Positions 16,422 through 33,993 of a DNA stretch of 64,000 nt are shown one piece after another. Positions within the stretch are counted from its first letter, which is position 1; each line of letters starts with the position of its first letter. The position numbers and the translations under genes are program-made. The notes under the pieces were generated by a model. That model made no database searches, had not been told where the DNA came from, and was given only the letters and a program-made list of their open reading frames with translations. Source of the DNA: Hymenobacter ruricola (GTDB lineage: Bacteria; Bacteroidota; Bacteroidia; Cytophagales; Hymenobacteraceae); the NCBI RefSeq assembly GCF_015694525.1, contig NZ_JADQDM010000001.1, forward strand, positions 310,001 through 374,000. Direction: 5' to 3'.

Positions 16422-17759
16422 ATGCCGACATCTGTTTCCGCCGAGCCCCGGGCTTTGCGTTTTTTCCGGGGCTTCCGGCTAGCCGGCGCGCTGCTCGGGG
16501 CCATGGCCCTGGTGGCCAGCTGCGGCGGCTCTGAAACCGCCGAAACCACTGCTTCTAAACCTGCTAAGGGCGCCAAACCCGCCACCCCTGCGCCCACCGA
16601 GACCGAAGCCGCCCCGCTCAACGTGAGCGTTTTTCTGGAATATTCGGGCGGTATGAAAGGCTTCGTGCCCCGCGGCGGGGCCGACAAACCCGCCACCGAA
16701 TTTCAGCAGCGCATCGGCGCGCTTATCACCGAAACGCAGGTGAACGGCGCCGTGAACAGCCGCAAATACTACCTCTGCGAAAACGCCGCACCCAAGGCCG
16801 TGCCCTTTGCCGACCTGCGCAACCTGGTGCAGGGCAACGTGTCGCAAGCCGCCCTGGGCACCGAGCTGCCGCAGATGCTGGAAGGCATTTTGGCGCGCCC
16901 GCAGGCCGCGCAGGAGGTCAGTGTCGTCATTTCCGATTTCATTTATGGGCCCGAGGACCGGTCGGCGTTTTCGCAGCTGCCCAACCTCATTCGCACGTCC
17001 ATCGCGCCCGTGAGCCAGAAGCAACTGGCCGTGGCGGTGTTTGGCGAGACTTCGCGTTTTTACGGCAGCTACTTCCCGGCCGTGAAAACGCCGGTGCAAA
17101 AGCGCACGCTGAATGGCGAAAAAGTGCCCTACTACGTGTGGGTGATTGGGCCGCCCGCACTGGTGGCGCGCTTCACCGCCGAGGTGTTCCGGAACGCGCC
17201 GGCCCAGCAAGCCTTCTTCGGGTTGAAGACGAGCACGCCGGCTTTCGCGCCGTTGCTGGTGAAACTGACCGACCCCAAACTCAAGCCCAGCGGCAGCGTG
17301 TACGGCGAGGATAACGGCCTGACCATGAAAGTGTCGGACGACCCGGCCGAATTTACGGTGGGGCTGAACCTGAAAGAATTGCCCGCTGCGTGGCAGCAAA
17401 CGGCCTTTTTGGCCCAACATCTGCAGGTGCGCTTGCCCAACGGGCAAGCCGCGCTGGTGCCGGGCTCGGTGCGCGCCCTCACCGAAGAGCAGCAGAGCGG
17501 CCAGCCGGTGCTGGCGCCCTACACCCACGCCCTGCGCCTGCGGGTGAGCAAGCTGGCGGCCCCCACCGCCACGCTCAGCCTGGCTTTGCCCGCTCCGGAA
17601 ACGCCGGACTGGGTGGCGGCCTGGAGCACCACCAACGACAATACGCCCGCGCCGCGCACGTTTGGCCTCGACCAGATTCTGGCCGGCGTCCGCCAGTCGT
17701 ATCCCACGCCGCTGCCGCCCGTATTCACGGTTCAGCTTCCCCTCAAAAACGATAAATAA
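16422..17759 (+). CDS. Lipoprotein with vWA-like domain and degenerate MIDAS
   Basis: 445 residues from ATG 16422. The N-terminus (FRLAGALLGAMALVASC) is a lipoprotein signal with lipidated Cys34. After a Pro/Ala/Thr linker, residues 66-80 (LNVSVFLEYSGGMKGF) look like the first strand and metal site of a von Willebrand A domain, except that the usual DxSxS reads E-Y-S-G-G. Asp172 in VSVVISDFIYGP would be the later MIDAS acid. The rest has no family I recognise. It is the first gene of the tubulin/actin/motor set and would sit in the envelope. TATACTTCG at 16386 is a possible -7 element. The longer frame from 16215 is rejected because the signal would be buried. Confidence 0.75.
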   Translation: MPTSVSAEPRALRFFRGFRLAGALLGAMALVASCGGSETAETTASKPAKGAKPATPAPTETEAAPLNVSVFLEYSGGMKGFVPRGGADKPATEFQQRIGALITETQVNGAVNSRKYYLCENAAPKAVPFADLRNLVQGNVSQAALGTELPQMLEGILARPQAAQEVSVVISDFIYGPEDRSAFSQLPNLIRTSIAPVSQKQLAVAVFGETSRFYGSYFPAVKTPVQKRTLNGEKVPYYVWVIGPPALVARFTAEVFRNAPAQQAFFGLKTSTPAFAPLLVKLTDPKLKPSGSVYGEDNGLTMKVSDDPAEFTVGLNLKELPAAWQQTAFLAQHLQVRLPNGQAALVPGSVRALTEEQQSGQPVLAPYTHALRLRVSKLAAPTATLSLALPAPETPDWVAAWSTTNDNTPAPRTFGLDQILAGVRQSYPTPLPPVFTVQLPLKNDK

Positions 17760-17775
17760 AGGAGATACGAGTCAT

Positions 17776-17854
17776 TGAGAAGTGAGATAGGAGACAAGGC
17801 TTGTTCTCCATTCTTAGGTTTCTCACGTCTCAGTTCTCCCAGTCTCACTTCTCA
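17776..17854. repeat. Imperfect palindromic repeat between motor-operon genes 1 and 2
   Basis: TGAGAAGTGAGA at 17776-17787 pairs with 17843-17854. Inner parts match poorly. Composition resembles the family F elements. Confidence 0.6.
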
Positions 17855-17862
17855 CCTCTCCT

Positions 17863-18273
17863 ATGCAAACCTTCTTCACCAGCCTGTATTCGGCTCTGAT
17901 TTCCATCTTCCAGAACCAGCGCCCGGCCGACTACGGCTTGTATAAAACCGACATTTTCGCGGCCGTGGGCTGGAGCACGCTGGGCGTGGCGCTGCTGCTG
18001 GTGCTGGCGTTTTACTACGTGTTCAACTCGGCTTTGCGCACGGGCATGTTCCGGACCACGCACTGGGTGCTCACGCTGGCGTTGGCCGCCGGGCTGGGCG
18101 TGGCGCTGGCCCACCATTTCAGCACCAGCCACGGGGCCGAGTCCAGCACTTACCTGGGCTATTTCATGGTGGTGAACATGATTGTGGCGGCGCTGTGGTT
18201 CCTTATTTTCTCGGTGCTCTTGAAGCGCTGGAGCACCTACGCGCGCACCACGCCGTTTGTAGGGCCGTTTTAG
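17863..18273 (+). CDS. Small integral membrane protein of the motor operon
   Basis: 136 residues with three hydrophobic segments (about 32-52, 65-85 and 95-118: GWSTLGVALLLVLAFYYVF, HWVLTLALAAGLGVALAH, FMVVNMIVAALWFLIF). A short charged loop and a cytosolic tail (KRWSTYARTTPFVGPF) follow. No family recognised. Placed between the lipoprotein and the tubulin-like protein, it could couple envelope and cytosolic parts of the machine; this is inferred from position only. Confidence 0.75.
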   Translation: MQTFFTSLYSALISIFQNQRPADYGLYKTDIFAAVGWSTLGVALLLVLAFYYVFNSALRTGMFRTTHWVLTLALAAGLGVALAHHFSTSHGAESSTYLGYFMVVNMIVAALWFLIFSVLLKRWSTYARTTPFVGPF

Positions 18274-18276
18274 AGC

Positions 18277-18370
18277 AGTTAAGAGTTAAAAGTTAGGAGT
18301 GAAGAGTTGGCTAGGCGCCGATTCTAACTCCAGCTGGCAACTCTTCACTCCTAACTTTTAACTCTTAACT
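18277..18370. repeat. Palindromic repeat, family F
   Basis: Perfect 33-bp arms at 18277-18309 and 18338-18370 (core AGTTAAGAGTTAAAAG), filling the whole gap to the tubulin-like gene. The same family is inserted in purM. Confidence 0.9.
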
Positions 18371-18375
18371 CAGCT

Positions 18376-19857
18376 ATGTCCAAACTATTCATCTTCGCCG
18401 TGGGCGGCACCGGGGCCCGCGTGCTGCGCTCCCTCACCATGCTGCTGGCCTCGGGCGTGCGCATTCCGAACTGCGACCAGGTGGTGCCCGTCCTCATCGA
18501 CCCCGACACCCAGAACGGCGACGTGACCCGCACCGTGGCCCTGCTCAAGCGCTACGCCCGCATCCACGAGGCCCTGTACGGCGACGGCCAGAAGGAAAAA
18601 ACCGGCTTTTTCAGCCAGCCCATGAACACGCTGGCCCACCTCAACACCAGCGGCGGCGGCGAGGAGCTGCGCGACTCGTTCGTGTACGACTTCGGCGGCA
18701 TCAGCCAGCCCTTTCGCGACTACCTGAAATACAACGACCTCTCGGTGGAAACGCAGGGTTTGGTCGATTTGCTGTTCACGCAGGACAGCCTCGCGGCCAA
18801 CCTCGACGTGGGTTTCCGCGGCTCGCCCAACGTGGGCTCGGTGGTACTCAATGCCGTGGTGCAGTCCAAGGAAATGCGCTACCTCGCCCAGAGCCTGCAG
18901 GACGGCGACCGGGCGTTTTTCATTAGCTCGATTTTTGGCGGCACGGGCGCGGCCGGCTTCCCGCTGCTGGTGAAAAACCTGCGCGACGCCAACTCGCCGC
19001 TGGCCCACCCCGAAGTGCGCCGCCGCCTGAAAGCCGGCGCACTGGTGATGTTGCCTTACTTCAAGCTGCAGGAACCTTCGGCCGATGAAAAGGCCGCCGG
19101 GCAGGATTTCATCGATTCCAATACGTTCATTACGAAGACCAAAACGGCCCTGTCGTACTACGCCGACAACCTGCAAGGGCTGGAAGCCCTGTACTATCTC
19201 GGCGACCAGCCGGGCCAGCCGCTGGCCAACCACCCCGGCCGCGCCGAGCAGCGCAACCAGGCCCACCTGCTCGAAATGCTGGGCGCGCTGTCCATCCAGC
19301 ACTTCATGGAAGTGCCCGACAACCAGCTTGATGGTAACCAGCCGCTGTACCACGAGTACGGCCTGAAATCGGACAGCACCGACGTCGATTTCGGCCAGCT
19401 GCCCAGCGACTTGCGCCAGGAGGTGGCCCGCCCGCTCATTCAGTTGCACTACTTCGCCCGCTATTTCCTCAAGCACACGCCGGAGGATGAAAAAGCCCCC
19501 TACTACGAAGCCGGGGACTTGTCGGCCCAACTGCGCAACAACCGCGCCTTGCGCGAACTGTACGACTTTTTCGGTGAGTACAACGAGTGGATTCGGGAGC
19601 TGGGCGTGAACCAGCGCCGCTACACCGCCATTCGGGCCGACGAAATGGATTTCAACAAAATGGTGGCCGATAAAACGGTCGAAACCGGCATTTTCAGCAA
19701 AGGCATCACGCCGGGCTATTTCCGCGACGAGCTCACCAAAGCCGTGGGCAAGGCGACGCTGAAAAACCCCACCGAAAACGAGGCCCTGCGCTGGGTGGTA
19801 AAGGCCTTTGAAGACGCCACGGGCGAGATTCTGGACAAGAAGCTGCAATACTCGTAG
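18376..19857 (+). CDS. Tubulin/FtsZ-like GTPase family protein
   Basis: 493 residues. The protein opens KLFIFAVGGTGARVLRSLT, a Rossmann-type nucleotide-binding start. It carries the tubulin signature loop as IFGGTGAAGFPLL (GGTGAAG at 188-194; tubulin/FtsZ normally GGGTGSG). The N-terminal acidic strand end (VPVLIDPDTQNGD) and the later YNEWIRELGVNQRRY helix region fit the Tubulin_2-type families, distinct from cell-division FtsZ. Cytosolic; likely a GTP-dependent polymer or switch. It is the third gene of the set with an actin-fold protein downstream and a MotA/MotB-like pair further on. Family assignment is by motif only. Confidence 0.8.
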   Translation: MSKLFIFAVGGTGARVLRSLTMLLASGVRIPNCDQVVPVLIDPDTQNGDVTRTVALLKRYARIHEALYGDGQKEKTGFFSQPMNTLAHLNTSGGGEELRDSFVYDFGGISQPFRDYLKYNDLSVETQGLVDLLFTQDSLAANLDVGFRGSPNVGSVVLNAVVQSKEMRYLAQSLQDGDRAFFISSIFGGTGAAGFPLLVKNLRDANSPLAHPEVRRRLKAGALVMLPYFKLQEPSADEKAAGQDFIDSNTFITKTKTALSYYADNLQGLEALYYLGDQPGQPLANHPGRAEQRNQAHLLEMLGALSIQHFMEVPDNQLDGNQPLYHEYGLKSDSTDVDFGQLPSDLRQEVARPLIQLHYFARYFLKHTPEDEKAPYYEAGDLSAQLRNNRALRELYDFFGEYNEWIRELGVNQRRYTAIRADEMDFNKMVADKTVETGIFSKGITPGYFRDELTKAVGKATLKNPTENEALRWVVKAFEDATGEILDKKLQYS

Positions 19858-19863
19858 CCGTTT

Positions 19864-20030
19864 GTCATTGCGAGCGTAGCGCGGCAATCCGTCCTCTCAA
19901 TGCGACCAGCTTCGAGAAGTGACAAGCCTTAAGTCTTGGGTAGAGCCCTCAACAATTTTAACTTCATTACATTACTAAGTGACGCGCTGAGAACAGGACG
20001 GATTGCCAAGGGCTGCGCCCTCGCAATGAC
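19864..20030. repeat. Palindromic repeat, family C
   Basis: Left arm 19864-19895 (GTCATTGCGAGCGTAGCGCG then GGCAATCCGTCCT) is mirrored at 19996-20030 with mismatches in the middle. It occupies most of the 216-bp gap between the tubulin-like and actin-like genes. Confidence 0.82.
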
Positions 20031-20073
20031 CGCCGATTCAACAACTCGCGCCATTTGACCGAAAACAACCTTC

Positions 20074-23000
20074 ATGGCTAAAATCCTGCGTTTGCACGAT
20101 ACCGGCTCCAGCACCCACGAGGGCTGGGGACCGACTGGAAAAATTGGCCCCCACGAAGTGGAGCGCCTGCGCGACCCGCAGGGCGGCCGCGCGGCCAAGG
20201 TGGCCGTGTCCATTCCCTCGCCCTTCGCGCGCATGCACCTGGTGGAAACCGCGCTGCGGTTTGTGACGCAGGGCGGGGCCGCCCAGGATTCCGTTTACCA
20301 CCAGCTGGTAAGCCACTTCTGGGACGTGTGGGAGATGGTGTTCAACTTTCACCAGCGCAAGCTGGCCAGCCAACGCCTGCAAATCCGGGCCTGGCGCAAA
20401 GACGAGGAACTGGCCAAGCTGCGCCAAAACCCCGCCACCCGCCCGCTGGCCGACGTGCTGGCGCTGTACCTGGACGGCCGCTTTGCGAAGCTGACCGAGC
20501 TGCACCTGATTTATTTTCCCGGCCCAAACGGGGTGCCGCAGCTCATCGGCGGCACTTCGCCGCTCACGCTGTTTTTCCCGGCGCCCAACGTGCGCCCGCT
20601 GCCGGTACAGCGGCCCCAGGGCGGCGGCTATTATTTCGACAGCACCTACGTGCCGCTGGAAGCCCGCGAAACCGCTTTCCGCGACTACGTGTACCAGCTT
20701 TTCACCGGCGACCCGGCGCTGACGTCGCTGGCCCCGCTGGTGCGCGACACCCTCGACCGCAGCCAGTTGCAGAAGTGGGCCCTGGAAGGCTCGGCCAGCC
20801 TGAGCAACTTCCCGGTGCTGACGGATGCGTCGAACAACCAGATTGACGTGGCCGGCGTGCTGCTGCGCGTGCGGCCCGACGAAGGGACGGTGCGCAATTC
20901 GGACCTGTTCATCCGGCCCAGCCGGCCGGGCGTGGCGGGGCCGCTGCCCATCGTGCTGCGACCCGGGCTGAAGGCCGTGGGCAAGCGCTACTTCAACGAA
21001 ACCATGTTTGCCGACAGCGGCGCCATCGTGCCCGCCGCTGATGCGCGCCCGCTGAAGGAGCGCACCCTGCCCGGCCCGGAGCTGCCGTACCCCTACCTCA
21101 CGGTGAACGACTTGCTGGAAGACACGCTGCTCACGGTGCCGTACGAGGTGGACGACACCCGCTTTTTCAGCGGCAATTTGAAGGTTGCGCCGGGCTTCAA
21201 ACCCAGCAACTGGCCGCTGCTGCCCCTCAAGCCCACGTATTTTGACTATTTCACGGCCCAGGATTTGGCCGAGCACCTGACGGTGGAAATGGATTCGGCC
21301 AGCGTGCGGGTGCGGCTGCGCGTGCCGGTGAGCGGCGGCGACTACGTGGACTACGAGCGCGCCTACTACCCCAACCCACAGGGCGACAACATCGGCCGGC
21401 TGCTGGTGACCAACGTGGCGCTGTCTATTTTCCCGTTCGTGAAAGTGGCCGACGCACCGCAGTACAACGACTTCTACAAAGTCATGCTGGTGGATGCCAA
21501 CAACATCGACCCGAGCATGGTGACCAAGAAAGTCGACCTGAAATTCTGGGCCAACGGCCACCAGCTCAGCGAAACCGGCACCGACCAGAGCGCCACCCGC
21601 TACGAGCGCACCCCCAAAACCAGCCAGGACGAGGGCAGCACCTACTACGAGGTGCGCGGCACGCATTTCGACTACCTCGAAGTGCTGAACCCGGCCCCGG
21701 CCGAGGGCCGCGCGCTCATCATCCCGCGCTGGCCCGAAGTGCGCCAGGGCACCAAGGAGTACCGTTTTGCCATCGATTTCGGCACCACGAACACCCACGT
21801 GGCCATGCAGGACAGCCCCGGCCAGGAGCCCAGGCCCTTCAGCTTCGGCCTGACCGACACGCCCGTGGCCCTGCTCAAAAAGAGCACCGCTGAGCCCGAC
21901 CGCAGCACCTACGAGCGCCTGTACCGCGGCATCGACGATGACCCGGCCAACTTCGTGCAAATCAAGCGCTGGCAGCAGTACCAGGAGCGGGAGTTCGTGC
22001 CGCCCATCATCGGGGCCGACAATTCGCCCTACGCCTTCCCGGCCCGCACCGCTACCTACGAGGCCGTTAACTACGCCACCCAGGAACTGAGCGTGCTCGG
22101 CAACATCAACGTGGCCTTCGGCATCATCACCGAAGAGCAGCGCCGGCCGAATTACCACACCAATCTGAAGTGGGATAATTCGCTGAACATCGCCAACACC
22201 AACCGCGTGCGGGCGTTTTTCAAGGAAATCCTGCTGCTGTGCCGCGCCAAGGTGGCCCTGAACGGCGGCAACCTCGCGGCTACGCAAATCACCTGGTTTG
22301 CCCCGCTGAGCTTCTCGACTTACCAGCGCAACCTGTACCAGCGCGAGTGGGACACGCTGTTCCACGACGTTTTCCACACCACCGCGTCCATGCCCTGCAT
22401 GGTCGAGTCGACGGCGCCGTACTACTACCTCACGCGCCGCAATATTGTGACGCTGGGGCCGGGTGAGAATGCGGCCTTCATCGACATCGGCGGCGGCACT
22501 ACCGACGTGCTGCTGTATGCTGACCGCAAGCCGGTGTTGAGCACCTCGTTCCGCTTCGCCGGCAATGACTTGTGGGGCGACGGCGGCGCCGAAGTGCGCG
22601 GCTCGAAGGACAACGGCCTTGTGCGTTTCGGCGTGGCCGGGGTGCAAAGCGCCGTGCTTTCGCCCGCTGCCCGCCGGGCCCGCGAATACGTGCTGGTGGC
22701 CGAAGGAACCGACAATTTCGGCTCCGAGGACGTGGCCAGCTTCCTGTTCAACTACGACCAGCTGCTGGGCTTTAGCGAGCGGCTGCTGCGGGCTGAGCAC
22801 CTGCGGGTGCTGTTTTACCTGCACTTCGGTGCGCTCATTTACCACGTGGCGCAGGTGACGGTGGCCAATGGGCAGCAACTGCCGCGCTACCTGTGCTTCA
22901 CGGGGCGCGGCAGCCTCTATGTGCGCCTGCTGGCGGCTGGCTCTAACCTGCAGCCGGTGGAGAAGCTGGCTCGCCTCATCATGGAGAAAGCTACCGGCCA

Positions 23001-23481
23001 GCCCGTGCCGGCCGATTTCCGCATCAAGCTGGCCGACGACCCCAAGCAAACCACCGCCAACGGCGGTGTGCTCGCCACCGGCCAGATTCCGCAGGACCCG
23101 CCGCTGGTGCGCCCCGTGGGCGTTGCCCCCGATGCCGAAAACCCGCTGGCTGACAAAGGCGAGCACCACCTGGAAGCCGCGGCCGTGACTGACGAAATCA
23201 AGCAGGCCGTGCTGAGCAACGCCCGCGCCTGCCTCAAGCTGCTGCTCGAAGACCCCGAGCTGAAGCGCGTGCAGGCCGACCTGGGCGTGAAAAACGACCC
23301 CGGCCTGGTGATGACCACGCTGGAGCGCAGCCTCGGCGACTCGTTCAACCTCTACCGCCAGCAGTACGCCGACGTGCTGCGCGACGGCGACACCATCCCC
23401 GAAACCCTGTTCTTCCTGCCGTTCAAAAACGCCCTGTATGAGCTATCCAAGGTGCTTCATGACGCGCAGCCGCTCAACTAG
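20074..23481 (+). CDS. Large actin/Hsp70-fold ATPase-like protein
   Basis: 1135 residues. The C-terminal half is an actin/Hsp70-type ATPase. Phosphate-1 is FAIDFGTTNTHVAM (Asp568, TT at 571-572), phosphate-2 is FIDIGGGTTDVLLY (Asp804-Asp810), and a likely adenosine loop is LCFTGRGSLYVRLLA. The first 560 residues have no motif I recognise, though they look like structured mixed alpha/beta. Such very large actin-fold proteins include the SrfB-type group; I cannot confirm membership. It starts 217 bp after the tubulin-like gene and overlaps the next gene by 23 bp, implying translational coupling. Cytosolic; could assemble with the tubulin-like partner. Confidence 0.8.
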   Translation: MAKILRLHDTGSSTHEGWGPTGKIGPHEVERLRDPQGGRAAKVAVSIPSPFARMHLVETALRFVTQGGAAQDSVYHQLVSHFWDVWEMVFNFHQRKLASQRLQIRAWRKDEELAKLRQNPATRPLADVLALYLDGRFAKLTELHLIYFPGPNGVPQLIGGTSPLTLFFPAPNVRPLPVQRPQGGGYYFDSTYVPLEARETAFRDYVYQLFTGDPALTSLAPLVRDTLDRSQLQKWALEGSASLSNFPVLTDASNNQIDVAGVLLRVRPDEGTVRNSDLFIRPSRPGVAGPLPIVLRPGLKAVGKRYFNETMFADSGAIVPAADARPLKERTLPGPELPYPYLTVNDLLEDTLLTVPYEVDDTRFFSGNLKVAPGFKPSNWPLLPLKPTYFDYFTAQDLAEHLTVEMDSASVRVRLRVPVSGGDYVDYERAYYPNPQGDNIGRLLVTNVALSIFPFVKVADAPQYNDFYKVMLVDANNIDPSMVTKKVDLKFWANGHQLSETGTDQSATRYERTPKTSQDEGSTYYEVRGTHFDYLEVLNPAPAEGRALIIPRWPEVRQGTKEYRFAIDFGTTNTHVAMQDSPGQEPRPFSFGLTDTPVALLKKSTAEPDRSTYERLYRGIDDDPANFVQIKRWQQYQEREFVPPIIGADNSPYAFPARTATYEAVNYATQELSVLGNINVAFGIITEEQRRPNYHTNLKWDNSLNIANTNRVRAFFKEILLLCRAKVALNGGNLAATQITWFAPLSFSTYQRNLYQREWDTLFHDVFHTTASMPCMVESTAPYYYLTRRNIVTLGPGENAAFIDIGGGTTDVLLYADRKPVLSTSFRFAGNDLWGDGGAEVRGSKDNGLVRFGVAGVQSAVLSPAARRAREYVLVAEGTDNFGSEDVASFLFNYDQLLGFSERLLRAEHLRVLFYLHFGALIYHVAQVTVANGQQLPRYLCFTGRGSLYVRLLAAGSNLQPVEKLARLIMEKATGQPVPADFRIKLADDPKQTTANGGVLATGQIPQDPPLVRPVGVAPDAENPLADKGEHHLEAAAVTDEIKQAVLSNARACLKLLLEDPELKRVQADLGVKNDPGLVMTTLERSLGDSFNLYRQQYADVLRDGDTIPETLFFLPFKNALYELSKVLHDAQPLN

Positions 23482-24526
23482 CCCGTTGCGGCGGTGGGCG
23501 CTGCTGCTCCTGCTGGCCTTGGGCAGCGGGGCGGCCGCGCATGCCCAGCCCGCGGCTTCCGACTCGGTGGCTGGTGCGCCGGCCGCTTCGGCCTCCAACT
23601 GGCCCTGGATGCTGGGCCTGCTGGTGGGCGGCATTGCCATTGGCGTGCTGGGCGCGCGGTGGCTGGCCCGCCAGCCCCGGAAAGTGGCCGACGTTGCCGA
23701 CCCGCGCCCTGCGCCCGAGGCCCCGGTGCCGCGGAAACGCGCCGAGAACGTGCCCAGAGCATCGGCACGGCCGGCTGACCCGGCAGCGACGCAGGGGACA
23801 CCCAGAGCTGAGAACATATCCAAACCGGGCTCCTTTCAGTCGCTGAGCCAGTTGCAGGGCCGCGAGCCACGGCCTTCGGCTTCTGGCAAATCTTCTGCAA
23901 AGTCCTCGGGAACGTCAGGTAAATCAGGTCATCAACCGCGTAAAAATTCTTCCTCACGCGGCTCGCAGGACTGGACCGTTCCGCACCGCGCCACCGATAT
24001 GAACCCTACTTCGCCTTCCTCGCCCGACAGCCCGCCGCTGGAGCCGGGCCAAACCGTGGAATGGGCCGCGCCCACGTCCACGCCACCCGCCATTCAGGAG
24101 CTGATTGACTCGACCGTGGCCGGCAACGAGGTGCCCATTGACCGCGACGCCCGGGTAGAGGCGCTGACCGCGCTGGAAGCGGCCGCCACGCCCGTTGCCG
24201 CCAATGGCCCCGTGCATTACTACGCGCCGGCCCCCGATGTGCCCAGCATCGAGCACCGCAAGCTCAGCCCCAACCCGCTGCCGCAGATGCCGCTGCTCAT
24301 TACGCTGCCGCACGCCGAAGCCACGACGGCGCAGTTCTCGTTCAGCCCGCAGGCCGACCAGTCGCGCATCATCGGCAACGGCGTGCGGGAGCTTAAGGAG
24401 TTTTTCGCGTTCGAGCTGCCACCCACCGAGCAGTTCACCACCATTAAAAACCTGGCGCCCGGCAAGCTGGAAAAGCGCGACGACGCCTGGCACGTGGTGC
24501 AGAAGGCCGGCATCGCGCTGAGTTAA
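23459..24526 (+). CDS. Membrane-anchored linker protein of the motor operon
   Basis: 355 residues from ATG 23459, overlapping the actin-like gene by 23 bp. It has a signal-like segment (WALLLLLALGSGAAAHAQ) and a second hydrophobic segment at 49-68 (MLGLLVGGIAIGVLGARWLA). A long Pro/Ser/Lys low-complexity stretch (about 72-215) leads to a folded C-terminus (MPLLITLPHAEATTAQFSF, then GVRELKEFFAFELPPTEQF). The topology suggests an N-terminal membrane anchor with a cytosolic tail domain on a flexible tether. Not recognised as a known family; the overlap makes a partnership with the actin-like protein likely. Confidence 0.7.
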   Translation: MTRSRSTSPLRRWALLLLLALGSGAAAHAQPAASDSVAGAPAASASNWPWMLGLLVGGIAIGVLGARWLARQPRKVADVADPRPAPEAPVPRKRAENVPRASARPADPAATQGTPRAENISKPGSFQSLSQLQGREPRPSASGKSSAKSSGTSGKSGHQPRKNSSSRGSQDWTVPHRATDMNPTSPSSPDSPPLEPGQTVEWAAPTSTPPAIQELIDSTVAGNEVPIDRDARVEALTALEAAATPVAANGPVHYYAPAPDVPSIEHRKLSPNPLPQMPLLITLPHAEATTAQFSFSPQADQSRIIGNGVRELKEFFAFELPPTEQFTTIKNLAPGKLEKRDDAWHVVQKAGIALS

Positions 24527-24540
24527 TAATTAGTTTTGAG

Positions 24541-24568
24541 GTAGAGACGCAAAATCTTGCGTCTCTAC
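24541..24568. repeat. Short palindrome, family E
   Basis: GTAGAGACGCAA (24541-24552) pairs with 24557-24568 around AATC. The same core forms the larger element at 53942-54040. It is the only feature in the gap before the MotA-like gene. Confidence 0.85.
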
Positions 24569-24588
24569 CTTCGCTCTAAATCCCTGCT

Positions 24589-26082
24589 ATGCTCTTAGTT
24601 GAAATTGTATTGGTGCTGGCGCTGGTCGTCTGGCAGGGCGTGGTGTTCTGGCGCAACCGCCAGCTCACCGCGCGGGTGGGAGCGATGTACCCGGCCGCCG
24701 GGGCAGTGGCGGTGCAGCCCATCCCGTTTACGGCCGCCAATCCGGACCGGAATTTTGACGTGCAGTACGACGCGCTGATGACGCGCAACGCCTCGCCGGA
24801 ATTCAACCAAATCATCACCGATACCAACGAATACCTGCTCAACAACCGCGGCGCCGCGGCCGATTTTGGCATCCTGAAGGACATCTCCGAGCGCCACGCC
24901 GAAGCGCTGGACGAGGAGATTCAGGCGCAGATTTCGACGCCGCTGTACCTGGGCTTGCTGGGCACTTTCACGGGGGCCATTCTGGGCTTGGTGTCGCTGG
25001 TGGGCAACCCCTTTGCCGAGGCCGCGGCGGACCCGGCCAAGGACACCTCGTTCAGCAACGGCGACGTGCAGCACTTCCTCGGCGGCGTGCTCATCGCCAT
25101 GATTGGCAGCTTGTTTGGCCTGGCCTTCACGCTGGCCGGCAACCAGCTGCTGAAGCAGGCCCGCGCCGGGCGCGACCGCAACAAAAACGCCTACTACACC
25201 TTCCTGCAAAAGGCCCTGCTGCCCAAGCTGAACTCCGACATGCAGGCCGGCATGGCCAATCTGAAATCGGTGCTGGACACGTTCAACGCGGAGTTCTTCA
25301 GCCAGATTCAGAACGACTTTTTCAGCAAAATCCACGAGTTTACGCCGCTCATTGCCAGCATCACGGACAACGTGAGCGTGCAAAAACGCTTCCTGGAGCA
25401 GTTGGAGAAAATCGGCTATTCGGAGCTGGCCAATGCCACCATCAAGGTGTTTGATAGGGTGGACGAAAGCGCCCAGACTTTCGAAAAATTTCTGGGCTAC
25501 CAGCAGGCCCTGAACAACACCGTGACCCACGGCGCCGAAGTGGCGCAGGTGATTACCGCGCTGCTCAACCGCCTCACGGCCCTGGAGCAGGGCTTGGCCA
25601 GCGTGCCGCAGTACCTGCAGCAGCACGACGATGCTCTACGCCAGCAGGTGGCCTTCTTCAGCCAGCACGGCAAGCTGCTGGCCGACCTCGGCGCCCAAAT
25701 CCGCCAGGGCGTGAGCGAGGGCGTGCACCGCATGGACGTGGAGCTCGACGGCCGCCTGCTGGAGCTGCAAAAGGAAGCGACCGAGGCCCATGAGCAGTGG
25801 CAGCGTCACTTCCGCGAGCTCAACCAGAACAACGTCTACCAGAAAATCACCGAGTACCTCAACCCCTTCACCCAACTGCCAGTGCAGCAGCAGCAGCTCA
25901 ACAGCCTGCAGGAGCGCCAGGCCTCGGTGCTGGCCCAAGCCATGCAGCGCATGGAAGCCCGCCTGCAAGCCGACTCGCAGCTGCAGCAGGCGCTCTTGCA
26001 GCAAGTAGACCGGACTAACAAGGTGCTGGAAGAAATTACCCGGCCCAACTGGTTTCAGCGGAATATTTTGGGCAAGAAGTAG
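24589..26082 (+). CDS. MotA/TolQ/ExbB-type channel protein with long coiled-coil tail (ZorA-like architecture)
   Basis: 497 residues. TM1 is at 2-22 and a loop follows with YLLNNRGAAADFGILKDI. TM2 (118-139, STPLYLGLLGTFTGAILGLV) and TM3 (163-184, FLGGVLIAMIGSLFGLAFTL) carry the MotA/TolQ-type proton-channel signature, with Gly/Thr-rich packing faces. From about 190 to the end the protein is almost all helical and Gln/Leu-rich, ending NWFQRNILGKK. That is a long cytosolic tail as in ZorA-type motor proteins rather than flagellar MotA. The MotB/OmpA-like partner follows. Expected to form a proton-driven inner-membrane stator acting on the cytosolic tubulin/actin components; that coupling is inference. 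Confidence 0.85.
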   Translation: MLLVEIVLVLALVVWQGVVFWRNRQLTARVGAMYPAAGAVAVQPIPFTAANPDRNFDVQYDALMTRNASPEFNQIITDTNEYLLNNRGAAADFGILKDISERHAEALDEEIQAQISTPLYLGLLGTFTGAILGLVSLVGNPFAEAAADPAKDTSFSNGDVQHFLGGVLIAMIGSLFGLAFTLAGNQLLKQARAGRDRNKNAYYTFLQKALLPKLNSDMQAGMANLKSVLDTFNAEFFSQIQNDFFSKIHEFTPLIASITDNVSVQKRFLEQLEKIGYSELANATIKVFDRVDESAQTFEKFLGYQQALNNTVTHGAEVAQVITALLNRLTALEQGLASVPQYLQQHDDALRQQVAFFSQHGKLLADLGAQIRQGVSEGVHRMDVELDGRLLELQKEATEAHEQWQRHFRELNQNNVYQKITEYLNPFTQLPVQQQQLNSLQERQASVLAQAMQRMEARLQADSQLQQALLQQVDRTNKVLEEITRPNWFQRNILGKK

Positions 26083-26165
26083 CGCGAACTTTGTAGTTCG
26101 CGTTCCCGCGCCGTTAACAGTTGTTCGAGCATCGTTTGGGGACGCGAACTACAAAGTTCGCGCTA
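26080..26165. repeat. Nested palindromic repeat, family D
   Basis: Arms 26080-26103 and 26142-26165 (TAGCGCGAACTTTG core). Each arm is itself a smaller palindrome (CGCGAAC with GTTCGCG). The element begins at the stop codon of the MotA-like gene. Sister copies lie at 48507 and 53091. Confidence 0.9.
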
Positions 26166-26200
26166 CTAATCAGCCACCATAAGCCTCAATCTCCTCACCC

Positions 26201-26860
26201 ATGAAAGAAAGCAAGGACTTCTTCTGGCCCAGCTACGTGGACCTCATGACGGCCTTGTTCCTGACCATGCTGGTGCTGTTTGTGCTCAGCTACAAGCTGT
26301 TTAAAGACAAGCAGCGCGACAACGACAAGCTCATCTACGACCTCAAGGTGCAGGTGGCGGAGAAGCGCAAGCTCGACGAGATAAAAGCGGCTCTGAAGCG
26401 CTTAGAAAGCAATTATTTCATCTACAACGAGCGCTATAAGCGCTACGAGCTCAACTTCCCCGTCACGTTCTCGCCCCAAAGCGCGGTGCTGCCCGCCGAG
26501 GCGCAGGCCCCGCTGGTGAAGGCCGGCCGCTTTTTGCTGAGCCAGATGCAGGCCATCAAGAACGACGACAACGTGCAGTACCTCATTGTGGTGGAAGGCC
26601 GCGCCGCTAAAGACCTGCGCTACCCCGCCAACGACCCGCACAACGCCGACGGCCCCGGCGTGCGCCAGCTCAGCTACAACCGCGCCCTGGCCGTGATTCG
26701 GCTGTGGGAGCAGGCCGGCCTGCGCTTCCCCGCCAACCTGGAGGTGGTGGCGGCGGGCAGCGGCTTCCGCGGGGCCGGGCGCTACACGGGCAGCCAGGAG
26801 GCGCTGAACAAGCGGTTTATCATCCAGGTGCAGCCTAAGATTGGCTCGATTGGAAAGTAA
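26201..26860 (+). CDS. MotB/OmpA-type stator partner (ZorB-like)
   Basis: 219 residues. A single N-terminal transmembrane helix (YVDLMTALFLTMLVLFVLSY) carries Asp14 at the position of the proton-binding Asp of MotB/ExbD/ZorB. A helical stalk (about 35-70) leads to an OmpA/MotB-like domain: FPVTFSPQSAVLPAEAQAPL, YLIVVEGRAAKDLRYPAND, and QLSYNRALAVIRLWEQAG, the peptidoglycan-contact helix. Gene order MotA-like then MotB-like is conserved for such stators. It closes the operon and is followed by a terminator-bearing repeat. Periplasmic anchoring to peptidoglycan is expected from the domain. Confidence 0.85.
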   Translation: MKESKDFFWPSYVDLMTALFLTMLVLFVLSYKLFKDKQRDNDKLIYDLKVQVAEKRKLDEIKAALKRLESNYFIYNERYKRYELNFPVTFSPQSAVLPAEAQAPLVKAGRFLLSQMQAIKNDDNVQYLIVVEGRAAKDLRYPANDPHNADGPGVRQLSYNRALAVIRLWEQAGLRFPANLEVVAAGSGFRGAGRYTGSQEALNKRFIIQVQPKIGSIGK

Positions 26861-26871
26861 GCGGGCGGGGG

Positions 26872-27042
26872 CGGCTCTGTCATTGCGAGCGTAGCGCAGC
26901 AATCCGTCCTGCCAACACCAGCCCAGTTCTTTTACCAAAAAGCCCCGGCACCGCAATGGCGCCGGGGCTTTCTGTCTTAATTAGGACTTAGGAGTCGCTG
27001 AAAACAGGACGGATTGCCGCGCTGCGCTCGCAATGACAGAGC
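26872..27042. repeat. Palindromic repeat, family C, between convergent genes
   Basis: Arms about 26872-26911 and 27005-27042 (CTGTCATTGCGAGCG core) enclose a terminator hairpin (26939-26971). Confidence 0.88.
26939..26971. terminator. Hairpin terminator
   Basis: AAAGCCCCGGC pairs with GCCGGGGCTTT across a short loop, with A and T tracts on the two sides. It sits between the end of the motor operon and the end of fba, so it can serve both. Confidence 0.8.
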
Positions 27043-29888: not shown

Positions 29889-31126
29889 GCGAGGGCGGTG
29901 CTAAGGGAGTGCAAGGAATAAAAGCGGCCGTCGATGCTGTCGCGGCGGCGCTCGGCGCCGTAGCTCAGGCGCAGCGACAGCGGGCGGCTCAGCAAAATAA
30001 GCAGGTTGGCGCCGCCGCGCTCGCGCACGGGGTCGAGGAGGTTGTAGACGTAGGTGCCGTCGAGTTCGGCCAGCGCGGGCGTCAGCCCCGTGCCGGCGTA
30101 GGCTTCGAGCCAGAGCTGGCGGCGCAGCCGGCCGCCGGCGCCCAGCACGCCGTGCGGGTAGCTGCGGCCGCCCGAGCGCAGCACGCTGGCCCGCCCGAAG
30201 CCGTAGAGGCGCAGGTTGCCCAGCGGGTAGGCGGTCAGGCGCAGGTCGGCTTGCAGGCGGGCGGTGTCGGTGAGGGTGCCGGCGAACACGCCGGCCTGCA
30301 CCGTCCAGTGGGGGCGGGCGTAGGCCAGGGCGGCGTAGCCGAGGTCGTCAGCGCGGTTGGTGAGCAGGCCCAGGTCGCTGCTGAGGTGGTTGTAGCCGAG
30401 CAGCGCGCGCCAGCGCGGGGCCAGCTGCGCGCCCAGCAGGGCGTGGTACTGCCCCTGGCGGAGCGGGTACCGGCGGCCGGCGCCGGGCCGGCGGCGGTCG
30501 GGCAGCTCCACGGTCTGGCCGAAGTAGCTCACGTTTTGGTTGAGGCTGACGCGGGCGCTGAGCCGGCTGCTGACGTCGAGCCGGCAGTAGCCGGCGTCGC
30601 CCCGGTGCGGGTTCTCGGCCCGCTGGCCGCTGGCTTCCACTTCCGCCTGGGTGAGGGCCTGGAAGGGCAGCAGGTGCAGGGGGCGGCGCAGGGAGTCGGG
30701 CAGGCGGGCGGCCAGCAGCGCGGCGGGGCCGCCCTGGTTGAGGCCGAGGTAGGCGAGGGCCAGGCCGTAGCGGGCGGCGGTGTCGAGCGGGTTTTCGCGC
30801 AGGGCGCGGCCGTAGTGGCGCAGGGCCAGGGCGGGCTTTTCGCGGGCCAGGGCGGCCTGGCCCAGCCGGCGGCGCAGGGCGGGGTAATCGGTGCCCAGGC
30901 GCAGGGCGGCGCGGCCCACCGAGTCCAATTCGGCCCAGCGGTACTCAGCGGCCAAGGTTTGGGTGAGGCTGTCGGCGTAGTGGAAGTCGGTCAGCTGCTG
31001 GCTTTGCGCGCGCAGCAGGCCGAGGCCGCAGCAACCCAGTAGCAGCGCCAGCCGCCACCAGCCGCGGGTGCCCCATTGCCAACGCGGCGGCCTGCTCTCC
31101 GCGAAAAAGTCCATTCCCCGCCTCAT
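29876..31126 (-). CDS. TPR plus outer-membrane beta-barrel protein
   Basis: 416 residues. Signal-like hydrophobic segment (WRLALLLGCCGLGLLRAQS), then a few TPR-like helices up to about residue 155 (ALRHYGRALRENPLDTAARY). The second half has alternating aromatic beta strands ([52 protein letters not shown]) ending in STALAWTW. That is a barrel with a terminal aromatic residue. The ATG overlaps the stop of the urea-transporter/M23 gene as ATGA, arguing for this start and for coupling. Likely an outer-membrane partner of the exported TPR protein downstream. Cargo unknown. Confidence 0.75.
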   Translation of the reverse strand: MRRGMDFFAESRPPRWQWGTRGWWRLALLLGCCGLGLLRAQSQQLTDFHYADSLTQTLAAEYRWAELDSVGRAALRLGTDYPALRRRLGQAALAREKPALALRHYGRALRENPLDTAARYGLALAYLGLNQGGPAALLAARLPDSLRRPLHLLPFQALTQAEVEASGQRAENPHRGDAGYCRLDVSSRLSARVSLNQNVSYFGQTVELPDRRRPGAGRRYPLRQGQYHALLGAQLAPRWRALLGYNHLSSDLGLLTNRADDLGYAALAYARPHWTVQAGVFAGTLTDTARLQADLRLTAYPLGNLRLYGFGRASVLRSGGRSYPHGVLGAGGRLRRQLWLEAYAGTGLTPALAELDGTYVYNLLDPVRERGGANLLILLSRPLSLRLSYGAERRRDSIDGRFYSLHSLSTALAWTW

Positions 31127-33810
31127 GCGCCCGCCACGGAAAAGGTGAGGTGGACGGCGGTGCCGGCCCGCTGCACGCGCAACTCGGAGATGCGTCCTTC
31201 CTGCACCAGCAAGGCGGCGGTTTGCGTCTCGCGCTCGCGGCCAAACCAGGCCACGGCCACGCGGCTGCGCAGCCGCACGGTGCGGCCAGCCCAGTCGCTG
31301 GCCTCGGTGGGGGCTTCGGCCAGCGAAAACGTGGGCTTCACAAACCGGTAGAACGGCGCCAGGAAGTCCTGCGCCCAGGTCAGGGCCGCATTGCCAACGA
31401 CGGTCAGCGGAAATTCATCCGTGGTGAGCTGGCCCGGCAGGCTCGCCAGCGGCACCCGGTAGGCGGCCCGGTACAGCAGGTAGAGCCACGACGCTTCGGA
31501 CCCATAAAAGGCCGTGAAATAGAACACGGACTCGTCGCCGCCGAAGTAGGCCACCGCGCCCGTGGCGTGGCAGCGCAGGTAGGGCAGGTTGTAGGCGTCG
31601 GTGAACACCTCCCAGCGCTGGGCCGGGGCGTCGGGCGCGTTCACGGCGCGCACGTCCAGCGCGTAACCGGGCGGGAAGCGAAAGGCCTGGGCCAGGGTGC
31701 GGTTGAAAGCGGGCGGGCGCACGGTTTCGCCCACCACGGGCACGGCGAAGTGGCGCAGCTCGGGCCTGGGCCGGGAATCCGGGGCCCCAACATCCCGCCC
31801 CGAAGCCATACCGGAAAACTCCGGGGTGGCCGCAACGTGGGTTTTTATCACCCCGGAGTTTTCCGGTATGGCAAAAATGTACGCCGAAGGCATGTCGGAG
31901 TTTTCCGGTATGGCCACAACGTACATTTTGGCCACTCCGAAGTTTTCCGGTATGGCTTCGACGTACATTTTGGCCACTCCGGAGTTTTCCGGTATGCCTT
32001 CGACGTAGGTTTTTGCCATACCGGAGTTTTCCGGTATGGCTTCGACGTACATTTTTGCCATTCCGGAGTTTTCCGGTATGGCTTCGACGTACATTTTTGC
32101 CATTCCGGAGTTTTCCGGTATGGCTTCGACGTAGGTTTTGGCCACTCCGGAGTTTTCCGGTATGGTTTCGACATGCGTTGCGGTCCTACCGGAAAACTCC
32201 GGGGAGCCCGCCCACCGCCCGGCCGCACGCTCTGGCCCCGCTGGCCGGCTGGGAGGCTCGGCCACGAAGTAGGCCAGCGGGTAGGCCACGGTGCGCGAGC
32301 CCACGTAGGGCGTGGCCTGCACCTGGAAGTGCAGATGGGGCTCGGGCGAGCGGCCGGAGTTGCCGCAGGTGCCCACAATGTCGCCCCGGCGCACGTGCTC
32401 GCCCACTTTCACCGGCACCGAGTGGGCCCGCAGGTGCGACAGCTGGGTGTAGAGGCCGGGCGCGTGGCGCAGCACCACGGTATTGCCCCAGTTCCGGGCC
32501 AGGTTCACGTCGCCCACGGCGTTGTCCTCAATGTGCTGCACGACCTCCGCCACCACGCCGTCGGCGGGGGCCAGCACCGGCTTGTTGTAGGCGTAGAAAT
32601 CGGAAACCGAGCGGCCAGCGCCCTGGTAGCTGCGGCCGTCGGCGTCGACGATGGCGAAGTCCAGCGCCTGGCCCCAGTCGCCGAGGTGGGTGGGCCCCCC
32701 GTCCTGGTACCCCTGGGTGCAGCGCCACGCGCCCAGGAAGGGCAGGGTGAGGGCCACCGCCCCCTGGTGGGCCAGCCGCACGCGGTCGGTGGCGTGGGCG
32801 TAGAGGTTGCGCTCGGGCGAGTAGCGCTGCACGGGCGTGAGCACGAGGCCCGCGCCGGGCCGCTCGCGCAGCAGCAGCACGTAGAGGAACAGCAGCGCCG
32901 TGACGCAGTAGGGCAGCGACAGCGCGGGCAGCCCCAGCTTGTCGAGCAGGGCCGTGAGGCCGGCCAGCAGCAGCACCGTCACGGGCACGCTGCCCAGGGC
33001 CCAGCCGTAGCTGGCCGCCGAGGGAATGACGAACACGCCGCCCACGGCCATGGCCGCCACCAGGTAATTAGCCCCGAGGTTGTACTCGTTGAGCCCGCCC
33101 GCCGCCGGCCCCGCCAGCGCGCTCAGCCCGTAGGCCACCAAAAACGCCAGCCCCGACAGCGAAAACGCAATGCGCGAGTGCCACAGCAGCCCGCCGGCCA
33201 CCAGCAGCCCGGCCAGGGCATTGTCCTGAAACAGCACCGCGCCCAGCGCCCGCAGGTAGGTGGCCAGCAGCGGCGGCCAGGGCCAGTCGGCCACCCACTG
33301 GGCCAAGCCCACCAGCCGCGGCCCGCCCACGGCGTACACGTCGTTCAGCCAGTACACGCTGCCCTCGGCGGCCGCCAGGTGCAGCAGCGGCCCGCTGCCC
33401 AGCAGCAAGAGCCACGTGGTGAGCAGGAAGGGCAGCGACAGAAACGGTAGTCCGCGCCCGCCCAGCCAGCCGCCGAGGGCCACGCTCAGCAGCAGGGCCA
33501 GGGCGGCGCCCACCGCCACCAGCCCCGCCAGCGCCCAGCCCGGCGCGTAGCAGGATGCCAGCGCCAGCCCGGTCAGCAGGGAGTTGAAGCTGTAGGCGCC
33601 CGCGTCGGTCCATTCCCTATTGAAGCCGGCCAGCCGGGCGCCGGCCACCGCCAGCGCCGCACCCGCCAGCCCCGCCACCCCGGCGGCCGGGTGGCTGAAC
33701 GTGACCAGCAGCAGCACCGCCGCAAAGCCCCGGTGCTGCGAAAAGAACAGCATGGCGTAGCTGTGCAGCACGGCGCGAAAGAAAGAAGGAATGGAAGAGG
33801 TGTTTGTCAT
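31123..33810 (-). CDS. Urea-transporter-like membrane domain fused to M23 metallopeptidase, with 42-bp coding repeats
   Basis: About 895 residues. The N-terminal 330 or so are a urea-transporter-type membrane domain (FFRAVLHSYAMLFFSQHRGF start, then AYSFNSLLTGLALA). The middle is an M23 endopeptidase (LGDWGQALDFAIVDADG, VLAPADGVVAEVV, CGNSGRSPEPHLHFQVQ with HLH zinc ligands) that would cut peptidoglycan peptides in the periplasm. Between it and a C-terminal beta-rich domain lie eight copies of a 14-residue unit (IPENSGMAKMYVEA), encoded by exact 42-bp repeats. I took ATG 33810; the longer frame to 33993 merely translates a repeat. ATGA overlap couples it to the barrel gene. The urea-transporter/M23 fusion is known in Bacteroidota; the substrate here is untested. 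Confidence 0.8.
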   Translation of the reverse strand: MTNTSSIPSFFRAVLHSYAMLFFSQHRGFAAVLLLVTFSHPAAGVAGLAGAALAVAGARLAGFNREWTDAGAYSFNSLLTGLALASCYAPGWALAGLVAVGAALALLLSVALGGWLGGRGLPFLSLPFLLTTWLLLLGSGPLLHLAAAEGSVYWLNDVYAVGGPRLVGLAQWVADWPWPPLLATYLRALGAVLFQDNALAGLLVAGGLLWHSRIAFSLSGLAFLVAYGLSALAGPAAGGLNEYNLGANYLVAAMAVGGVFVIPSAASYGWALGSVPVTVLLLAGLTALLDKLGLPALSLPYCVTALLFLYVLLLRERPGAGLVLTPVQRYSPERNLYAHATDRVRLAHQGAVALTLPFLGAWRCTQGYQDGGPTHLGDWGQALDFAIVDADGRSYQGAGRSVSDFYAYNKPVLAPADGVVAEVVQHIEDNAVGDVNLARNWGNTVVLRHAPGLYTQLSHLRAHSVPVKVGEHVRRGDIVGTCGNSGRSPEPHLHFQVQATPYVGSRTVAYPLAYFVAEPPSRPAGPERAAGRWAGSPEFSGRTATHVETIPENSGVAKTYVEAIPENSGMAKMYVEAIPENSGMAKMYVEAIPENSGMAKTYVEGIPENSGVAKMYVEAIPENFGVAKMYVVAIPENSDMPSAYIFAIPENSGVIKTHVAATPEFSGMASGRDVGAPDSRPRPELRHFAVPVVGETVRPPAFNRTLAQAFRFPPGYALDVRAVNAPDAPAQRWEVFTDAYNLPYLRCHATGAVAYFGGDESVFYFTAFYGSEASWLYLLYRAAYRVPLASLPGQLTTDEFPLTVVGNAALTWAQDFLAPFYRFVKPTFSLAEAPTEASDWAGRTVRLRSRVAVAWFGRERETQTAALLVQEGRISELRVQRAGTAVHLTFSVAGA
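31811..32202. repeat. Eight-unit 42-bp coding tandem repeat with inverted caps
   Basis: CCGGAGTTTTCCGG-type cores occur with TTTT at 31859, 31901, 31943, 31985, 32027, 32069, 32111 and 32153, exactly 42 bp apart. Copies of the core in opposite orientation flank the array (31811-31824 and 32189-32202). All lie in frame in the M23 fusion gene: forward units read PENSG and caps read PEFSG. Confidence 0.93.
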
Positions 33811-33990
33811 TGCGAGTGGAGCGCAGCGGAACGCGGCAATCCGTCCTGTAAATGCGACCAGCCTGATAACCTCAGACTGTTTTTTGAAGTGGTGAGTGGC
33901 TAATGAAGAACTTTCTGGGTTAGGCAAGTTGGTCGCATTGGGAGGACGGATTGCCGCGTTGCGCTGCGCTCCACTCGCAATGACAAACAC
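33800..33990. repeat. Palindromic repeat, family C
   Basis: Left arm begins near 33800 (GTGTTTGTCATTGCGAGTGG) and is mirrored up to 33990. The start codon of the urea-transporter/M23 gene (33808-33810) lies inside the left arm. It fills the gap to the decarboxylase gene. Confidence 0.88.
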
Positions 33991-33993
33991 CAC

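Follow-up and report, generated by a model that had tools for sequence, protein, structure and literature searches.

A conserved operon of Hymenobacter and related Bacteroidota pairs tubulin- and actin-fold proteins with a MotA/MotB-type motor

In Hymenobacter ruricola, seven consecutive genes encode a tubulin/FtsZ-fold protein, an actin-fold protein, and a MotA/MotB-type motor pair, together with a lipoprotein, a small membrane protein, and a membrane-anchored linker. This operon spans positions 16422-26860 of the window, a 64,000-nucleotide stretch of chromosomal DNA (genome G000, contig C11; NCBI contig NZ_JADQDM010000001.1). Its genes keep together in one order across genera, and at a fixed site the operon has been swapped as a whole cassette. 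The new evidence tilts its functional role toward a conflict system but does not settle it, and we regard an envelope-spanning, Zorya-like conflict machine (antiphage or anti-competitor) as close to an even bet (probability roughly 0.48).

Results

Seven genes on one strand. All seven open reading frames (ORFs) were open and on the + strand in an ORF check of the window, in line with an earlier annotation made from the DNA alone (hereafter, the sequence-only reading), and the overlap it had noted between genes 4 and 5 measures 44 bp. From gene 1 to gene 7 the intergenic gaps are, in order, 103, 102, 216, -44, 62, and 118 bp. The genes are as follows:

Gene 1, 16422..17759, + strand: lipoprotein with a degenerate vWA domain
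Gene 2, 17863..18273, + strand: small membrane protein with three hydrophobic helices
Gene 3, 18376..19857, + strand: tubulin/FtsZ-fold protein with two glycine loops (G10-G13, G188-G194)
Gene 4, 20074..23481, + strand: 1135-residue protein with an actin/MreB/Hsp70-fold ATPase, as predicted, at residues ~560-1009
Gene 5, 23438..24526, + strand: linker with a signal peptide, one transmembrane (TM) helix, and a cytosolic C-terminal domain
Gene 6, 24589..26082, + strand: MotA/TolQ/ExbB-type channel subunit with three TM helices and a ~310-residue cytosolic tail
Gene 7, 26201..26860, + strand: MotB/ZorB-type subunit with one TM helix bearing Asp14 and an OmpA-like C-terminal domain

Tubulin and actin folds in genes 3 and 4. 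Searched singly against Pfam and NCBIfam, gene 7 was the sole window protein to pass a Pfam cut-off. Structure comparison, set beforehand as a check on both proposed folds, upheld the tubulin fold of gene 3. Its AlphaFold model (predicted local distance difference test score, pLDDT, 81; predicted template modeling score, pTM, 0.87) aligned best with CetZ in VIA-align (Z 15.2, 3.1 Å across 199 residues), and all among the 50 matches listed were FtsZ or tubulin; Foldseek matches were weak, the top one being PhuZ (E 1.2e-3, template modeling scores 0.26/0.37). Taken alone, gene 3 scored no better than E 0.016 against Pfam Tubulin, but the same profile matched 13 of 14 family members (best 4.8e-6). 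Tubulin_2 was matched weakly by 12 of the 14 (best 3.2e-9); the window protein fell under its Pfam cut-off (11.9 vs. 27 bits), which none of 39 relatives exceeded. The GGTGAAG claimed at residues 188-194 is present in an FGGTGAAG loop whose G188, G189, T190, and G191 are invariant in the 14 family members, as is the second glycine loop, G10-G13. Q292, N294, H297, and E300 are also invariant and mark a candidate catalytic loop. The genome encodes its own FtsZ elsewhere (contig C28, E 2.4e-49), and gene 3 is therefore an additional tubulin. In two Hymenobacter genomes, single-base deletions near codon 289 (L073) and codon 302 (L090), ~13 codons apart and by the conserved QxN..H..E stretch, split gene 3, for which sequencing error, decay, and frameshifting are all possible causes; two matches were likewise obtained in several other genomes.

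The actin fold of gene 4 also held up. In an AlphaFold model with pLDDT 72.6, whose N-terminal half is modeled less surely, residues 560-1009 matched MreB in Foldseek at E 1.3e-7 (291 matches at E ≤ 1e-3), VIA-align gave ParM at Z 12.4 and MreB at Z 11.3, and profile matches included actin (8r2n, 2.1e-5) and MreB. Asp568 and Asp804, both singled out in the sequence-only reading, are invariant in 11 members along with Glu778. Judged by the model and these residues, the region is an actin-fold ATPase domain with Asp568 and Asp804 as its putative phosphate-1 and phosphate-2 aspartates. Residues 1-560 were assigned no fold. The suggestion that gene 4 might be SrfB was dropped: Pfam PF07520 did not score above its cut-off, and the one match among 11 members had E 0.075. 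A search of 39 genomes for SrfB, run without a positive control, found none.

Genes 6 and 7 form a motor pair closest to ZorAB. Hydropathy gave gene 6 three helices, a TolQ/ExbB/ZorA-like arrangement that replaces the four helices assigned earlier, and confirmed its long cytosolic tail of ~310 residues. Pfam MotA_ExbB (PF01618) matched 7 of 15 gene-6 members (best 2.6e-5). Because the full-length profile retrieved mostly coiled coils from the PDB, the channel part was cut out of it and searched, which returned MotA/TolQ/ExbB matches led by 8vvn_C (3.1e-4), then ZorA and TolQ. Alignment of gene 6 to the genome's own ExbB-like proteins in hhalign scored 43%, compared with 0.06% for the control. 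An LmuB match (7.7e-5) was taken for coiled-coil similarity. A flagellar motor was rejected, the genome's only two PF01618 matches over the cut-off being ExbB-like proteins elsewhere and gene 6 having three helices. The motor profile matched once in this genome, at this operon.

In gene 7, the membrane helix FFWPSYVDLMT carries the predicted Asp14, invariant in 15 members, and Pfam OmpA was matched at 1.4e-6. PADLOC ZorB models matched all 15 gene-7 homologs (best 2.3e-15), and the gene-7 profile found 8vvn_B, a MotB-related chain (3.1e-8), and ZorB (8qyd_F, 3e-5) in the PDB. The MotA/MotB-type assignment of the pair is thereby supported, with ZorB the closest named relative in both PADLOC and PDB profile searches.

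Lipoprotein, membrane protein, and linker. Gene 1 has a VASC lipobox with Cys34, which is invariant among 20 homologs together with Ser75, Met78, and Asp172. Motif and profile agree with its being vWA-like, but the metal ion-dependent adhesion site is degenerate in the window (E73-x-S-G-G-M, the T144 region, and S-D172-F), with Glu in place of the first Asp and Gly in place of the second Ser. Profile-profile comparison with vWA proteins of the same genome gave a probability of 91%, vs. 0.8% for an unrelated profile; gene 1 had no Pfam match, and its vWA profile returned nothing useful from the PDB. Gene 2, with three hydrophobic helices by hydropathy, has a homolog in every seven-gene operon. 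In gene 5, hydropathy placed a TM helix at ~55-73 followed by four Lys/Arg residues, and G342 and W351 are invariant in a conserved C-terminal domain, an architecture that would suit the anchoring of cytosolic proteins.

The seven genes are inherited as a unit. The neighbors expected to stay together in related genomes do so: all seven genes were found in one gene order at 85 loci, corresponding to 72 distinct operons in at least nine genera (Hymenobacter, Pontibacter, Rufibacter, Adhaeribacter, Sabulibacter, Solirubrum, Nafulsella, Chitinophaga, and Cryomorpha). Chance grouping is excluded because the same order on a single strand recurs in 83 of the 85, the remaining two having been flagged solely for an extra gene-5-like ORF on the opposite strand. 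At L044 and L068, an extra ORF of this kind, 531-537 amino acids long, lies just 5' of gene 1 and faces away from the operon. At least 555 relatives were counted in total. Of 200 genomes of the family, 172 had the tubulin and 171 had the motor channel; among the genomes listed, those lacking one also lacked the other, with the single exception of G595 (tubulin, no motor), the 8 and 9 genomes without a match not listed by name falling outside this comparison. By our count, family members outside the genus carried the tubulin in 56 of 84 sampled genomes and lacked it in 28, and in the wider phylum it was rare (13 of 395 genomes; about 97% without). Wherever all were found, the motor genes directly follow genes 1-5 in the same order. 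A dozen or so lineages have genes 1-5 but no motor genes, as seen in Prevotella and Spirosoma-group operons, and the motor label changes ~4 times along the actin tree. At each of five Prevotellaceae loci (L125, L127, L129, L131, and L133), the gene after the motor-less operon encodes a protein that begins with a zinc-ribbon-like segment and has a TM helix.

Cassette swapping at a fixed site. Hymenobacter operons occupy three or more chromosomal sites. At one of these, site B, the genes on either side of the operon were mostly 85-96% identical between paired strains (73-93% for flanking gene F9), whereas L115 compared with L067, L069, and L070 showed identities of 34-36% (gene 1), 38-40% (gene 2), 46-47% (gene 3), 39% (gene 4), 28-32% (gene 5), 45-46% (gene 6), and 61-67% (gene 7). 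Nucleotide alignment ended ~330 bp 5' of gene 1 and resumed past gene 7, with only gene 7 itself and a few short stretches aligning in between; a pair with the same version aligned at 82-88% along most of the operon. In the actin tree, a quick tree with Shimodaira-Hasegawa-like approximate likelihood ratio supports only, the window version was nearer to Adhaeribacter/Pontibacter than to the L115 version of its own genus (supports 95-100). Given conserved flanks, divergent genes, and versions in different tree lineages, the operon was swapped as a whole cassette; rapid evolution alone would not produce such a tree position, whereas transfer with replacement would. By analogy, whole-unit replacement at a fixed site would be typical of conflict or surface systems. 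A defence island was rejected, as the Pfam-tested neighbors at Hymenobacter sites were housekeeping or unassigned.

A dispersed element with inverted ends (CATTGCGAGCGTAGCGCGGCAATCCGTCCT) has copies in the gap between genes 3 and 4 (19866-20030) and 3' of gene 7 (26881-27035), and the gene 3-gene 4 gap is enlarged because of the copy inserted there. Farther along the window, a long ORF on the - strand (31123-33993) contains a run of near-identical repeats of ~12 residues (AIPENSGMAKMYVE-like).

A variable slot follows the core genes. In other genera the slot 3' of the core is occupied by enzymes that are lipoproteins or anchored in the membrane, and start and stop codons often overlap there. 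These comprised a retropepsin-type lipoprotein protease (Chitinophaga twice, Cryomorpha, Spirosoma, and one metagenome-assembled genome; overlap of 4-8 bp), a trypsin-like lipoprotein protease (Nafulsella and Catalimonadaceae), an SNase lipoprotein (Cryomorpha), a non-specific endonuclease (two viral-collection contigs), and a hedgehog-type domain (L123), and an L,D-transpeptidase gene followed the core in G074. Such an enzyme is absent 3' of gene 7 in most Hymenobacter and Pontibacter operons. At L036, two TerD genes (best E 1.4e-70) come after a distant tubulin-actin pair.

Operon relatives were found on five viral-collection contigs. Two of them (L141 and L142) have the motor genes and no recognized gene 5, and encode a 500-residue protein whose gene shares 4 bp with gene 7, plus a membrane-anchored non-specific endonuclease. 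A third (L143) has a phage-type integrase in the vicinity of a distant tubulin-actin pair, which suggests that the pair is carried on an integrative element. A viral origin of the window operon itself was rejected, the window being chromosomal with housekeeping flanks.

Discussion

The conflict reading draws on the shared fate of the genes, a motor closest to that of Zorya, the arms-race signature, the variable slot, the TerD branch, and an earlier proposal, made on independent evidence, that GTPase-centred systems with tubulin or HSP70 serve in conflict (PMC7159879). Zorya defence requires the ZorA tail, peptidoglycan binding by ZorB, and ion flow (PMC11890865). In the machine we propose, genes 6 and 7 would form a peptidoglycan-anchored, ion-driven 5:2 motor of the MotAB/ZorAB/TolQR kind with its long tail reaching into the cytoplasm. 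Genes 3 and 4, a predicted tubulin-fold GTPase and actin-fold ATPase, would build nucleoside triphosphate-dependent cytosolic assemblies that gene 5 might hold at the inner membrane, and the vWA lipoprotein of gene 1 may serve with gene 2 as an outward-facing sensor or receptor. An envelope insult (phage adsorption, DNA entry, or competitor attack) sensed outside would alter motor activity, and the motor tail could then trigger or organize tubulin/actin-type assembly where the insult occurs. In some lineages, lipoprotein proteases or nucleases of the same operon would act in the periplasm. That an ion-driven rotary motor is mechanically coupled to both tubulin- and actin-type assemblies, in a cassette-swapping envelope immune or anti-competitor system undescribed before, we put forward only tentatively.

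Several observations weigh against a conflict machine. The strongest is that nearly the whole genus retains the operon, an unusual pattern for a defence system: by our count the tubulin was present in 116 of 116 same-genus genomes sampled, and in 37 of 37 in a smaller sample. The sites examined have housekeeping neighbors, cassette swapping is known for surface-structure loci too, and neither a protease nor a nuclease is encoded in the window operon. PADLOC recognized no defence gene besides the ZorB-like gene 7, in whose OmpA domain the LSxxRA motif retains its Arg but no residue stands out as the canonical peptidoglycan-binding Asp.

The main rival is constitutive envelope remodeling, in which a Tol-like motor pulls or stirs the envelope and the tubulin and actin assemblies position it; the machine would then maintain the outer membrane or cell wall, form vesicles, or serve trafficking. 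Such a role would account for a near-universal single copy in the genus and for housekeeping neighbors, and it fits the L,D-transpeptidase gene after the core in one relative as well as the membrane remodeling proposed for operons in which FtsZl1 accompanies vWA and OmpA genes (PMC2875224). It sits poorly, however, with cassettes only 28-67% identical swapped within mostly 85-96% identical flanks, with absence from 28 of 84 family members outside the genus and about 97% of the phylum, and with protease and nuclease genes in the slot; we hold it to be credible, although it will probably prove wrong. A surface motility, adhesion, or secretion machine analogous to the type 9 secretion motor GldLM, in which the motor moves gene 1 or a partner, is unlikely. 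Gliding and type 9 secretion are driven by MotAB-like motors (PMC12505986, PMC8986121), the lipoprotein would face outward, and exposed parts that vary would suit a surface system, but the conserved operon has no adhesin, secretion pore, or rotor gene, and Prevotella and Spirosoma-group operons hold genes 1-5 with no motor genes. Least probable of all is an absence of mechanical coupling, with the ZorAB-like pair a separate module traveling with a vWA/tubulin/actin signaling set, for although the motor-less lineages and the ~4 motor-label changes would agree with it, the motor genes lie immediately 3' of genes 1-5 in constant order and the motor profile matched only at this operon in the window's genome.

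In bacteria, tubulins and actins have familiar roles in division, shape, and DNA segregation, and MotAB-type motors are familiar from flagella, Ton/Tol, gliding, and Zorya. If the proposed machine is real, one conserved operon that unites these three with an external sensor-like lipoprotein would connect the bacterial cytoskeleton with a motor driven by ions, and Zorya-like defence could extend to Bacteroidota. Natural swaps between near-identical flanks offer a ready genetic test of its purpose.

Comparison with known systems

In the open-access literature, our survey turned up no paper that links tubulin, actin-like, and MotA genes. Like Zorya, the operon has a MotA-like subunit with a long tail and a MotB-like subunit with a membrane Asp and an OmpA-type domain. 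Unlike Zorya, it includes a tubulin, an actin-fold ATPase, a linker, and a vWA lipoprotein, its tail is about 310 residues, and it is widely retained in one genus; genes 1-5 had no match in PADLOC and include no ZorC, ZorD, or ZorE effector. With no effector gene and with other partners, the operon is not a Zorya system. It shares with TolQR, ExbBD, and MotAB the channel motif PLYxGLxGT, the WPSxxDLMT helix, and the TolQ/ExbB three-TM layout, and is set apart by the OmpA domain of gene 7, the long tail of gene 6, and the absence of TolA, TonB, TolB, and flagellar genes from the operon.

The sequence-only reading had mentioned a proposal that FtsZ-like proteins encoded beside vWA and OmpA genes remodel membranes, and such a proposal appears in the passages of Makarova and Koonin (2010, PMC2875224) drawn on here, alongside a reviewer's objection that an FtsZ in the cytosol would not come into contact with components in the periplasm. 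By analogy, the motor and linker of the present operon could supply such a link. As in FtsZl1 (Tubulin_2) systems, a divergent tubulin-superfamily protein adjoins vWA and OmpA-type genes; unlike them, gene 3 falls below the Tubulin_2 cut-off, the operon has no kinase or GTPase gene, and it adds an actin-fold protein and a MotA-type subunit, neither of which is named in those passages.

Kaur et al. (2020, PMC7159879) proposed conflict systems in which GTPases are joined by tubulin or HSP70, by vWA proteins, and by protease effectors that vary. The operon resembles their GAP1-N2 systems in its tubulin, actin-fold/HSP70, and vWA proteins and its membrane location, and protease effectors occur in related systems there. 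However, tubulin and HSP70 are non-overlapping themes in that work, whereas the operon combines both folds and a motor, and Pfam found no GAP1 or TRAFAC GTPase among the seven genes. Since it resembles FtsZl1, GAP1-N2, and Zorya systems yet falls outside the full definition of each, we regard the operon as a new variant and a member of none of them.

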